A stretch of DNA of 42,838 bases from Candidatus Caenarcanum bioreactoricola (GTDB taxonomy: Bacteria; Cyanobacteriota; Vampirovibrionia; Caenarcaniphilales; Caenarcanaceae). Every line of letters begins with the position of its first letter. Within the stretch, counting starts at the first letter, position 1. Under the pieces are notes generated by a model, which did no database searches, had not been told where the DNA came from, and was given only the letters and a program-made list of their open reading frames with translations. Below are positions 33,669-38,422 of the stretch, in pieces. The DNA lies in the NCBI GenBank assembly GCA_001899385.1, contig MOYB01000003.1:115485-158322 (forward strand), given 5' to 3'. The translations under genes and the position numbers were made by a program.

Positions 33669-35264
33669 ATGTCTAAAGTTTTGATTACTGATGCATTAAG
33701 TGAAGAAGGCTTAAAAATACTAAGAGAATGTTCTGAAGTTATATATGAACCTGGTATGAAAGCAGATAAAATTAAAGAAGTTATAAAAGATTGTTCTGCA
33801 ATGCTTGTTAGAAGTGGGACACAAGTAACTAAAGAAATTATAGATGCTTGTTCTTCGGAAATGAAAATTATAGGAAGAGCTGGTGTAGGTGTTGATAATA
33901 TAGATGTAGAAGCAGCTACTCAAAAAGGCATAATAGTTGTTAATTCTCCAGATGGTAATACTACTGCAGCAGCAGAACATACTTTTGCTTTAATGATGAG
34001 TTTAGCAAGATTTATACCTAATGCTCATGAATCAATGAAAAAAGGAGAATGGGAAAGAAAAAAATTCACTGGTATTGAACTTAGAAATAAAAATCTAGGC
34101 ATAATTGGCTTGGGCAAAATTGGCTCTAAAGTTGCTCAGATGGCTCAAGGTGCTTGTATGAAAGTCTATGCGTTTGACCCTATGCTTTCAAGAGAAAAAG
34201 CTGAAAGTTTAAACATAGAACTTGTTGATAATCTTGATGAGATTTGGACTAATTGTGATTTTATAAGTTTACATGTACCAAAGACTCCTAAAACCGCTAA
34301 TCTTATAAATAAAGATAGTATAGCTAAAATGAAAGATGGAGTTCGTATAATAAATTGTAGCAGAGGTGGTGTTGTAAACGAAGCAGATTTAGCAGACGCA
34401 GTTGAAAAAGGCAAAGTTGCTGGTGCTGCAATAGATGTTTATGATAAAGAACCTCCAGATAAAGATCATCCTTTATTAAGAGTTGCTGATAAAATAATAA
34501 TGACTCCACATTTAGGGGCGGCAACAGAAGAAGCTCAAATTAATGTTGCAATAGATGTTGCTTTACAAATAAAAGAAGTTTTAACTGGTGGATTTGTAAG
34601 TAATGCAGTAAATATTTCTGGAATAAATAGTGCAACTATCTCTGTTTTAGCTCCTTATATGAATCTTTGTAGAATATTGGGATGTTTTCTTGCACAATAT
34701 GCGGGACAAGTTAGAATTGAAAATCTTACTGTGAAAGTAAATGGTGAATTAGCAAAACAAGATATAGAACCTTTAATTTTATCTTCACTTATAGGCTTTT
34801 TATCTAGTTGTCTTGAAGGTGTAACTTTAGTAAATGTAAAATCTCTTGCTAAAGAAAGAAATATAAAAATAACTGAATCAAAATTAAGTGAAAAAACTGA
34901 TTATTCAGAAGAAATTTCTTTAGAACTTCAAACAGATAATAAGAAATTTTACATTTCAGGAATTCTTGAAAATAAAAAGATTCCTGTAATTATTAAATTA
35001 AATGGAAGAAGCTTTTTCTTAGTACCAAGCGAACATATGTTATTAACTTTACATAATGACAGACCAGGTGTAATTGCTAAAATAGGTAGTGTATTAGCTA
35101 ATAATAATATAAATATTTCTGGTATGGCATTAGGACGTAAAGGGGTAAAAGAAGAAGCTCTTATGATTTGTAGTATAGACGAAACAATTTCAGATAATGT
35201 CTTAGAAGAAATAAAGAAAGCTTCTTATGTTGAAAAAGCAGCTTATATTAAATTAAAGCTATAA
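33669..35264 (+). CDS. serA: D-3-phosphoglycerate dehydrogenase
   Basis: It oxidises 3-phosphoglycerate to 3-phosphohydroxypyruvate, the first step of serine synthesis. The substrate and NAD domains (about 1-310) contain GRAGVGVDNID, the Rossmann motif GLGKIGSKVA, the catalytic Arg region NCSRGGVVNE and the His of MTPHLGAATEEA. An intervening ASB domain (about 320-450) and a C-terminal ACT domain (about 455-531, LLTLHNDRPGVIAKIGSVL) make it the long 531-residue type, in which ACT commonly mediates serine feedback. It is a single gene; its end overlaps the stop of the activase/dehydratase gene by six bases. Confidence 0.97.
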   Translation: MSKVLITDALSEEGLKILRECSEVIYEPGMKADKIKEVIKDCSAMLVRSGTQVTKEIIDACSSEMKIIGRAGVGVDNIDVEAATQKGIIVVNSPDGNTTAAAEHTFALMMSLARFIPNAHESMKKGEWERKKFTGIELRNKNLGIIGLGKIGSKVAQMAQGACMKVYAFDPMLSREKAESLNIELVDNLDEIWTNCDFISLHVPKTPKTANLINKDSIAKMKDGVRIINCSRGGVVNEADLADAVEKGKVAGAAIDVYDKEPPDKDHPLLRVADKIIMTPHLGAATEEAQINVAIDVALQIKEVLTGGFVSNAVNISGINSATISVLAPYMNLCRILGCFLAQYAGQVRIENLTVKVNGELAKQDIEPLILSSLIGFLSSCLEGVTLVNVKSLAKERNIKITESKLSEKTDYSEEISLELQTDNKKFYISGILENKKIPVIIKLNGRSFFLVPSEHMLLTLHNDRPGVIAKIGSVLANNNINISGMALGRKGVKEEALMICSIDETISDNVLEEIKKASYVEKAAYIKLKL

Positions 35265-37388
35265 ATAATCTACTATATATTTAGTTTGTGGCATAAATGA
35301 AAAAATATCCCCATAATTTTTCTTATTTAAAGCCTCTATATAAGCATCTATTTTTGTATAAGTACTACAAGGATCTATTGTTGAGTCCATACAATCACCG
35401 TCAAGTGTTAATAAAGGAATATTTATACTTTTCAATTCAGATTTAAGCTTTTTTTGAAAACTATTATCTGACATTGAACATCTCCCAAATCCATGGTTGT
35501 AAAGTATAACCCCATTAAATTTTCCTGCAATACAACCTGCTTTAATATTTTCTATTCTTTTAAATGGATTTAAAAAACCTACTGTAAGAATTTTTTTTGC
35601 AAGAGAAACATAAGGATTCTCAGGATTAAGCTCTTCCCATCCAGTAAAATTAACTTCTTCAAAAATTATTGGTGCATTTTTTTCTTCTTCTATATATCTT
35701 AGTAATTTATTATTATAAAAAGGAGGAAGATGTAGCCATAATATACGATGTGTATCTTTTATTTCAAATTGCTTTTCTATTTTTTCTTTTGCTTTTAATA
35801 AATCTTCTTTGTAAATCTTAAATAAATCTATAAGTTCTTTTTTACCCCACATTTGAGAAAATACATTTGCAAAATAGACTGCGCTAGAAGCTCGTATAAG
35901 AGGGGGGTTGCTAATTCTCAAAAGAGTACATTCATCTGAAAGCTTTTTTGCAAGATTTGAATTATAACAACTTTGTTTTAACTTCTCTGGGTCAAGTTTA
36001 TAACCTGAGATTTTTTCTATATTATATACACATTCTTTAAGTTGTTCTGCAATATATTGAATAGAATTTTTATTTATATTTATAGGAGTTTCAATTGAAA
36101 AAAGTCTATCTTCTATTCCATAATCATGCATTAAATCTTTAAAAATTCTATCTCCTTGTTGACAAGGTTGAGAAGTACATAATCCAAAATCTGCTTTTGG
36201 AATTTTCATACCTTGTAAAACTCTTAAAAAAGAACAAGTTTCTGAAGAAAAGCCTTTTATAGTTGAATTATCAAGAAATTCTTTTATTTTGTTTTGATTT
36301 TTAGCTCTTAATGCTGCAAAAGTCTCAAGTGTAATTGTTCTAAAACCAAAAGCATTAATTAATTCTACAGGGAAGAAGAGATTGCGCCATACAAGAGGCA
36401 TTGGGCTTGACGAAAAATATTCTTTTCTGCTTAAATCACTTCTAAAGCCAATTGATTTATAATTTTCTTTTATTAAAGTTGTATTTAATAAGTCTTTTTT
36501 AATAATAGTATCTTTAATATATAAAGCATTTTCTTTATTTTCAAAATGTTTTTTAGCAATTATCGCACAGCCTAAAGCTCCTATTATGCAATGTAATTGA
36601 GGTACTATAATTCTATTGCCACTTAATTTTGTTAAATAATGTATAACTACTTCGTTAGAAGCAACACCACCTTGAAAGATTATATCGCCTTTATAATTCT
36701 TAAAAAGTTCTCCTACTCCAGACATAATAGTTCTTGCTTGGGCTTTGCAAGCAGAAGCAATAATTTGTCCTAAAGGATATTTATTTTTAAATTTATTTAT
36801 AGAAGTTGCACTTAAAACAGCACAGACTGAAGAAAATTCTAATTCTGAGCTATAATCTGCAGCTTGAGACATTTCTTCTATATTTACACCGAGTTTATTC
36901 GCTATAGTATCAAGAAAAGCTCCGGTCCCAGCAGCACAAATTCCACTCATTTTTGAAATCCAAAGAGAAATTTCTTCATCATAAATAATAGCTTTACTAT
37001 CTTGCCCTCCTACATCAAGAATAGCTTTACAATTTGAATTTGAATAAAGAGCACCTTCTATATGGGCAGAGATTTCACTTACTTTTAAATCATAGTTTAT
37101 AAAATTATTATTTTTTTCTAAAACTTGGCTCCCAGTCATAACAATACAGTTAATATTTTCTAAACTATATGAACCAGAATCTTTAAGAAAATCATTTACA
37201 TATTTTTTTATACTACCAAAATAGCATTTACCACAGTTAAAACAACTCCCACTACAATTAAAATTTGAATGTCCAGAGATTTCAGCTCTTTTATAAAAGG
37301 TATTAAGAATCTCAGAATTTTCATTAATTAAAACAGCTTTAATAGTTGTAGAACCTACATCTATACCAAGAAACAAATTATGCTTCAT
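35259..37388 (-). CDS. Fused CoA-dehydratase activase and 2-hydroxyacyl-CoA dehydratase/double-cubane-type protein
   Basis: 709 aa from ATG at 37388. Residues about 1-280 are an ASKHA ATPase of the HgdC/BadF type, with GIDVGSTTIK, DVGGQDSKA and the cluster ligands Cys151 (SGICAAGTG) and Cys189 (SSVCAVLSA). Residues about 325-709 resemble the HgdB-type dehydratase subunit, with Cys385 (TCSFLR), Cys404, Cys409 and a later HGFGRC motif that could hold an iron-sulphur or double-cubane cluster. In relatives the activase uses ATP to push electrons into the dehydratase cluster. An insertion near the start has Cys45, Cys49, Cys52 and Cys55 (C-x3-C-x2-C-x2-C), a possible extra cluster. A TTG at 37427 would add 13 residues. 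It overlaps ssb by 11 bases. The reaction is unknown. Confidence 0.85.
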   Translation of the reverse strand: MKHNLFLGIDVGSTTIKAVLINENSEILNTFYKRAEISGHSNFNCSGSCFNCGKCYFGSIKKYVNDFLKDSGSYSLENINCIVMTGSQVLEKNNNFINYDLKVSEISAHIEGALYSNSNCKAILDVGGQDSKAIIYDEEISLWISKMSGICAAGTGAFLDTIANKLGVNIEEMSQAADYSSELEFSSVCAVLSATSINKFKNKYPLGQIIASACKAQARTIMSGVGELFKNYKGDIIFQGGVASNEVVIHYLTKLSGNRIIVPQLHCIIGALGCAIIAKKHFENKENALYIKDTIIKKDLLNTTLIKENYKSIGFRSDLSRKEYFSSSPMPLVWRNLFFPVELINAFGFRTITLETFAALRAKNQNKIKEFLDNSTIKGFSSETCSFLRVLQGMKIPKADFGLCTSQPCQQGDRIFKDLMHDYGIEDRLFSIETPININKNSIQYIAEQLKECVYNIEKISGYKLDPEKLKQSCYNSNLAKKLSDECTLLRISNPPLIRASSAVYFANVFSQMWGKKELIDLFKIYKEDLLKAKEKIEKQFEIKDTHRILWLHLPPFYNNKLLRYIEEEKNAPIIFEEVNFTGWEELNPENPYVSLAKKILTVGFLNPFKRIENIKAGCIAGKFNGVILYNHGFGRCSMSDNSFQKKLKSELKSINIPLLTLDGDCMDSTIDPCSTYTKIDAYIEALNKKNYGDIFSFMPQTKYIVDYL

Positions 37389-37743
37389 TAGCTTTTCTAG
37401 AAGAGAGCAATCTAAAAGAATTTGCAACTATAGAATAGAGTTCTCTTTTTTCACCACTTTCTTTATCTGTCCATTTATTTACACTAAGCCTGCCATCAAC
37501 ACCAATAAGAGTGCCTTTTTTTATATATTCAGAAGCAATTTCAGCATCTTTATTCCAGAATTCCACTCTAAACCAGTCAGTAATTTTTTCTTTATTTTTA
37601 CCAATTCTATTTACTGCAAGACTAACATTTGCTTTTGCACTACCACTATCAAAATATTTAATTTCTGCATCAGACCCTGCATGACCCACAATCATTATAT
37701 TGTTAAAAAAACGATTATTATCTGTATTTTCTGTATTATTCAT
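37378..37743 (-). CDS. ssb: Single-stranded DNA-binding protein
   Basis: 121 aa with one OB fold: NIMIVGHAGSDAEIKYFDSG near the start, WFRVEFWNKDAE in the middle and GTLIGVDGRLSVNKW in the third strand region. It coats single-stranded DNA in replication and repair. The protein stops soon after the OB fold and lacks the flexible linker and acidic D-D-x-x-P-F tail that recruits partner proteins in most bacteria. Short tail-less Ssb proteins of this size are known in cyanobacteria. It overlaps mazG by 8 bases upstream and the activase gene downstream, so the three are one operon. Confidence 0.9.
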   Translation of the reverse strand: MNNTENTDNNRFFNNIMIVGHAGSDAEIKYFDSGSAKANVSLAVNRIGKNKEKITDWFRVEFWNKDAEIASEYIKKGTLIGVDGRLSVNKWTDKESGEKRELYSIVANSFRLLSSRKANEA

Positions 37744-38422
37744 GGTTTATTTTTTCTTCAAAAGAACTTTGTAATTTGTTAATGGTTTTTCTAAGACTTT
37801 CTTCAGGATCAAGCTTTAATTCTTTGCAGTGATTTGCAAGAACTAATAAAAAATTCCCTAAAGAATCTTCATCTATTATGACATCTTTTACTAGAAATTT
37901 TTCATGATTTTTTAAATATTTTTCTAATTTTTCTTTTAAATTTAGTTTTTCTATTTTTTTTAAGGTTTTAACAGCTCTAGATAAACTAGGTAATGTTTTA
38001 GGGATACTTTCAAAAGGAGATTCTTTTTCTTTACCTTTTTTTATTTTTTCATGTTTTTTTAGTTCTTCCCACTGATCAACAACTTGAGAAGAATTTAAGA
38101 TTTTTTCTGTTTCAAAAACATGAGGATGCCTTGAAATCATTTTTAAATTAACATCTTTACAAATATCATAAAAATCAAAATAATTTTTTTCGTGAGATAT
38201 TTGAGAATGGATGCATATTTGAAAAAGTAAATCCCCTAATTCTTCACGAAGATCTACTTCTGATTTTTTATCTATTGCATCAAGAACTTCATAACATTCT
38301 TCTATAAGATATTTTTTTAAAGATTCATGAGTTTGTTCTCTATCCCAAGGGCAACCATCTGGTTCTCTTAGTTTTTTTATAGTAAAAAGTAATGCTTCTA
38401 AGTCTTTTATTGATGAATTCAT
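37736..38422 (-). CDS. mazG: Nucleoside triphosphate pyrophosphohydrolase
   Basis: It breaks NTPs, especially unwanted ones, to NMP and pyrophosphate. LREPDGCPWDREQTHESL is the conserved N-terminal block, followed by the metal-binding E-x-x-E motif (IEECYEVLDA) and the E-x-x-D motif (REELGDLLFQ). The C-terminal half keeps QWEELKK and a second, weaker helical MazG-like half. Length 228 aa is a little short of E. coli MazG (263). It is first in an overlapping trio with ssb and the activase/dehydratase, and divergent from treS. Confidence 0.93.
   Translation of the reverse strand: MNSSIKDLEALLFTIKKLREPDGCPWDREQTHESLKKYLIEECYEVLDAIDKKSEVDLREELGDLLFQICIHSQISHEKNYFDFYDICKDVNLKMISRHPHVFETEKILNSSQVVDQWEELKKHEKIKKGKEKESPFESIPKTLPSLSRAVKTLKKIEKLNLKEKLEKYLKNHEKFLVKDVIIDEDSLGNFLLVLANHCKELKLDPEESLRKTINKLQSSFEEKINHE

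Follow-up and report, generated by a model that had tools for sequence, protein, structure and literature searches.

The fusion gene and its two domains

The window, that is, the whole stretch of DNA analysed, comprises 42,838 nucleotides of the genome of Candidatus Caenarcanum bioreactoricola, a member of the Cyanobacteriota (Vampirovibrionia) from a non-photosynthetic group that has hardly been studied. The locus of interest encodes a long chain, P0001, in which an activase is followed by a domain of the 2-hydroxyacyl-CoA dehydratase type (HGD-D). The following genes and features were assigned:

35259..37388, minus strand: fused activase/HGD-D protein P0001, 709 aa (ATG at 37388, stop at 35259)
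37378..37743, minus strand: ssb, upstream of the P0001 gene (11-nt overlap)
37736..38422, minus strand: mazG (8-nt overlap with ssb)
36564..37370, minus strand: activase domain (BadF/BadG/BcrA/BcrD ATPase, PF01869), residues 7–275, by Pfam match
36936..36938, minus strand: Cys151, invariant in activase alignments (ICAAGTGAFLD); ligand 1 of the [4Fe-4S] that activases typically hold at the dimer interface
36822..36824, minus strand: Cys189, invariant in activase alignments (FSSVCAVL); ligand 2 of the same cluster
36420..36536, minus strand: low-confidence linker, residues 285–323 (pLDDT <50; 24–32% identity between the two copies known)
35328..36380, minus strand: HGD-D domain (PF06050), residues 337–687, by Pfam match; closest solved match HadB (3o3m/3o3o chain A)

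The overlap with ssb had been claimed in the preliminary description and was found to be 11 nt long. Considering that ssb and mazG overlap as well, mazG, ssb and the P0001 gene likely form one transcription unit. At its 3′ end, the P0001 gene overlaps by 6 nt with the convergent serA, which ends at 35264.

Both Pfam models matched well above their cut-offs (99.2 vs 31.5 bits for PF01869 and 144.5 vs 28.4 bits for PF06050), which bears out the earlier proposal that an activase and an HGD-D domain, one copy of each, share a single 709-residue chain. The activase model TIGR00241 scored just over its threshold (127.1 vs 125.4 bits). Besides these family models and the two interface cysteines, the GxDxGS and D-x-GGQD phosphate motifs of HgdC/BadF activases were found as G8-x-D10-x-G12-S13-T14 and D125-V-G-G-Q-D, and C151, C189, G8/D10/G12/S13 and G127-G128-Q129-D130 proved to be invariant among the aligned activases. 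In a Foldseek search, 4ehu and 1hux were the best matches of this half. The AF2 model of P0001, obtained from a four-row alignment, had a mean pLDDT of 65 and a pTM of 0.50, and it suggests that residues 285–323, tethering the activase to the HGD-D domain, are probably a flexible linker.

The four-cysteine insertion

37224..37256, minus strand: C45-x3-C49-x2-C52-x2-C55, the four-Cys motif, carried by an insertion of 17 residues (about 36–52)

The cysteines lie where they had been placed by the preliminary description, in an insertion after the first ATPase strands, and the alignment together with the secondary structure of the AF2 model located this insertion in the loop that joins strand 3 to helix 1 of ATPase subdomain I. 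Its absence from standard activases, suspected from the outset, was confirmed: when 15 activases of several phyla were aligned, P0001 and its homologue alone showed the insertion and the four cysteines, and none of the other activases compared had the insert, whether E. coli YjiL, plasmid-borne activases of several phyla, dozens of class relatives including all those read, or the aligned PDB matches. The more distant activases without the four cysteines were devoid of the entire insertion. Comparison of the insert alone with the PDB returned chance matches only, and the exact spacing found no match in a literature search. P0001 contains 21 cysteines; the exact C-x3-C-x2-C-x2-C arrangement appeared in 0.065% of its composition-preserving shuffles, and any four cysteines within 11 residues appeared in 3.9%.

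One full-length homologue of P0001 was found, which shares 50% protein identity, comes from another genus and retains both the fusion and the four cysteines, so the invariance expected among proteins with the same fusion held in that sequence. C45, C49, C52 and C55 are kept despite a local identity of 32–40%, and N44, G53, Y56, G58 and K61 near the motif are likewise kept in both copies. Judged from the alignment, conservation of the motif is supported but thinly sampled, because only two independent sequences carry it.

The four cysteines probably hold an extra [4Fe-4S] cluster, a putative electron entry site. The insert could instead bind zinc as a structural ion, or no metal, in which case P0001 would be an activase/dehydratase fusion of the ordinary sort, receiving its electrons straight at the interface cluster; we consider this the less likely but a serious alternative. 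Four closely spaced cysteines are also able to bind zinc, the insert belongs to a low-confidence loop of the model (pLDDT <50 across residues 37–51), and standard activases function without any such insert. On the other hand, the host protein is a redox protein built on Fe-S clusters, in an organism bearing pyruvate:ferredoxin oxidoreductase (PFOR). Moreover, CX3CX2C is the spacing of radical-SAM cluster sites, and the first three cysteines of the insert follow it. Zinc is compatible with all of these features. The topology of the model suggests that the insert loop may be the pseudo-symmetric counterpart of the Cys151 strand/helix loop in subdomain II.

Two side observations concern other activases. 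The class relatives G348 and G350 contain an apparent benzoyl-CoA reductase (BCR)/dehydratase operon (L058:137-3987), and the BCR-like activase of G350 has an insertion of ~170 residues in the same loop; since this insertion is much longer, the loop evidently tolerates insertions. Standalone activases of the class (L015:1495-2505; L034:1255-2289) have a cluster of cysteines at the C-terminus, such as HECNDCANSCEV ... GGACGKW, which is another place where activases have gained extra cysteines.

The catalytic half and its genomic context

36387..36389, minus strand: Trp334, in the alignment column of HadB Trp34
36324..36326, minus strand: Glu355, counterpart by alignment of the catalytic Glu65 of BzdO (PMC11971306) and of HadB Glu55
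36234..36236, minus strand: Cys385, core HGD-D ligand 1 by alignment (BzdO Cys95; PMC11971306)
36162..36164, minus strand: Cys409, core HGD-D ligand 2 by alignment (BzdO Cys128; PMC11971306)
35478..35480, minus strand: Cys637, core HGD-D ligand 3 by alignment (BzdO Cys380; PMC11971306)
35367..35393, minus strand: Cys666 and Cys674 (GDCMDSTIDPCST), kept in both copies and absent from the other aligned HGD-D proteins

PF06050 and the three core cluster cysteines place the C-terminal half in the HGD-D fold family. HadB was its nearest relative both by sequence (3o3m_A) and by fold, the Foldseek ranking being HadB (3o3o_A), then BzdO, then the double-cubane cluster proteins (DCCPs), and the spacing from Trp to Glu is 21 residues in P0001 and HadB alike. 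Trp334 is also the probable counterpart of BzdO Trp46, which together with the substrate ring takes up the room that the second cubane, now lost, would have filled (PMC11971306).

This kinship, the conserved Trp and Glu, and the fact that the HadB equivalog NF052455 was the best of the dehydratase models would fit a canonical 2-hydroxyacyl-CoA dehydratase acting on CoA esters in amino-acid fermentation. We nevertheless think this role improbable. NF052455 reached only 70.6 of the 750 bits required by its threshold. The characterised enzymes are alpha/beta heterodimers (PMC11574389) and require two genes, but the genome of the window contains one copy each of the activase and HGD-D domains, with no second HGD-D or other activase; thus, a beta subunit was not found. 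None of the five genomes of the order yielded a CoA-transferase of family I (PF01144) or III (PF02515), the two families searched for, which extends the earlier remark that no CoA-transferase lies near P0001, and no acyl-CoA genes adjoin the P0001 gene. As the genome is about 91% complete, single gene absences are no proof, and a gene may be missing. The substrate of P0001 need not be a CoA ester, though it could be one, formed by a CoA ligase.

Each of the five genomes of the order encodes PFOR. In that of the window it is a single-chain enzyme with an open frame of 1184 aa (L056, G000:C23:26289-26969), and in the other four POR-type frames of ~600 aa were seen. COX1 was absent, and this, together with the presence of PFOR, fits a metabolism that runs at low potential and relies on ferredoxin.

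A double-cubane [8Fe-9S] reductase of the DCCP/YjiM type, acting on acetylene, azide or similar small molecules, would be the closest analogue in gene content, as DCCPs are single-gene HGD-D proteins that form homodimers and work with an activase partner (PMC11971306), and weak matches to NF040772 and to 6eno/7yyl were obtained. However, NF040772 gave 47.7 bits where its threshold is 350, and such proteins need six cluster cysteines per HGD-D. The three extra cysteines of YjiM, a Sulfurovum protein and an Azoarcus fusion, which were called double-cubane ligands from their conservation and the stated six-thiolate count rather than from a structure, correspond in P0001 to Asn336, Asn580 and a missing loop. 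With these ligands missing, the double-cubane option of the preliminary description was rejected as highly improbable, and a single [4Fe-4S] cluster of the HadB/BzdO type is therefore expected from the sequence. Nor did P0001 match the subunits of class I benzoyl-CoA reductase, the equivalogs TIGR02259, TIGR02260, TIGR02261, TIGR03191 and TIGR03192 all scoring far below cut-off. The pair Cys666/Cys674 possibly forms another site for a metal or a disulfide; both copies keep C474 and C487 as well.

Distribution, proposed mechanism and known systems

The homologue belongs to a 'Candidatus Caenarcaniphilales' MAG (G002) of the same family as the genome of the window, and the gene was found in two of the five genomes of the order Caenarcaniphilales, each representing a different genus. 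The neighbours differ, mazG-ssb flanking the P0001 gene and ruvA its homologue. Between the same two genomes, serA is 61% identical, vs 50% for P0001. These identities would fit vertical descent with the gene lost from sister genera, and the gene is dispensable in the family, because sister genera live without it. At E<=1e-60, a sample of 292 genomes of the phylum contained no further gene of this type, and the other matches in 382 class genomes covered the activase domain alone, among the matches listed. A single-sequence pattern search of the genome contigs yielded no relatives of P0001, and a two-sequence alignment, with a reach limited to the divergence these patterns allow, recovered the Caenarcaniphilales homologue only. 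In viral contigs, the two-sequence alignment gave no match and a broader alignment gave three distant activases, while tblastn of plasmids and phages with P0001 returned distant matches only. The class activase alignment matched in 289 of the 382 genomes; the standalone activases of the class were rejected as P0001 orthologues, having about 31% identity, no insert and a different C-terminal Cys patch.

In the HgdC/HGD-D family, an activase dimer with an interface [4Fe-4S] cluster uses ATP hydrolysis to drive an electron to its HGD-D partner (PMC11574389). We favour, by a modest margin over even chances, the interpretation that P0001 is a self-contained, homodimeric, ferredoxin-fed and ATP-driven low-potential reductase/dehydratase with an added [4Fe-4S] cluster as electron entry, in other words, the HgdC/HGD-D ('archerase') electron pump encoded by one gene. 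Dimerisation would take place through the activase domains, with C151 and C189 of both monomers sharing one [4Fe-4S] cluster, so that the homodimer would consist of paired activases and paired HGD-D domains. Reduced ferredoxin, e.g., from PFOR, would give the electrons, which most likely would reach the extra C45/C49/C52/C55 cluster first; ATP hydrolysis would then bend the activase dimer and deliver one very-low-potential electron to the tethered HGD-D domains. In each of the latter, C385, C409 and C637 would bind one [4Fe-4S] cluster and leave an iron site free towards Glu355 and Trp334, where the substrate would be reduced or dehydrated as in HadB and BzdO. The frame of this scheme (both domains, the ligand residues, no gene for a partner subunit and no double-cubane ligands) is read from the sequence; onto it we infer the pairing of the homodimer, by analogy, as well as the insert cluster with its role and the ferredoxin donor. 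What counts against a one-chain pump is that no beta-type partner was seen, that the motif is known in two independent sequences only, that the AF2 model is of moderate quality and that the gene is missing in sister genera. A bolder version, that P0001 stands for a new lineage of ATP-driven reductases of ultra-low potential, each encoded by one gene, in which an extra [4Fe-4S] cluster at the pseudo-symmetric counterpart of the usual cluster loop feeds the activase and an alpha-type, single-cubane HGD-D homodimer acts on a substrate other than a CoA ester, is offered tentatively and appears rather doubtful.

Among the known systems, HadBC with its activator (3o3m/3o3o; 4eht/4ehu) shares with P0001 the activase fold with two cluster cysteines and, in the HadB alpha subunit, the HGD-D fold, the three core cysteines and the Trp/Glu pair at matching spacing, but it consists of three separate proteins with an alpha/beta dehydratase, has no four-Cys insert and belongs to a CoA-transferase pathway. 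DCCPs and their reductases (6eno, 7yyl; E. coli YjiM/YjiL) also combine one HGD-D with one activase in ATP-driven electron transfer, as proposed for P0001, whereas their genes are separate, each HGD-D has six cluster cysteines instead of three, and the insert is lacking. The class I benzoyl-CoA reductases (BzdNOPQ, MbdONPQ) resemble P0001 in the BzdO-type three-Cys site with Trp and Glu, and differ in their four different subunits, the double cubane in a partner subunit and the aromatic substrate; BCR-type subunit genes were not found in the genome of the window. The fusion as such is no novelty, since a 685-residue chain with the same domain order is already present on the Azoarcus sp. KH32C plasmid pAZKH (WP_156822349.1). 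Unlike P0001, this protein has no Cys insert and keeps the double-cubane cysteines, and the HGD-D halves are only 20% identical. What is new here is the combination of the fusion, the four-Cys insert, a single-cubane alpha-type HGD-D and the lack of partner genes, which was not found elsewhere within the data searched.

P0001 thus may represent a compact, tethered electron pump, in which activase and catalyst are fixed at 1:1 and an entry cluster is probably built in; owing to these features, ATP-gated electron transfer becomes testable in one recombinant polypeptide. An alpha-type HGD-D without a beta subunit also provides a test of the need for the electron-storing cluster of the latter.

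Other gene arrangements were encountered during the searches. The pAZKH fusion is part of a three-gene operon (L013:2006-6197) that encodes an activase, the fused activase/HGD-D with double-cubane cysteines and a second HGD-D, and that belongs to the same superfamily. A 693-aa chain on an IMG/VR contig (L052:1903-3984), in which an activase-related N-terminal part precedes a C-terminal activase, looks like a fusion in reverse order. On a Sulfurovum mangrovi plasmid (L044:1-4408), HGD-D and activase genes lie directly 3′ of two 4Fe-4S protein genes, a set that is possibly an electron-donor operon.
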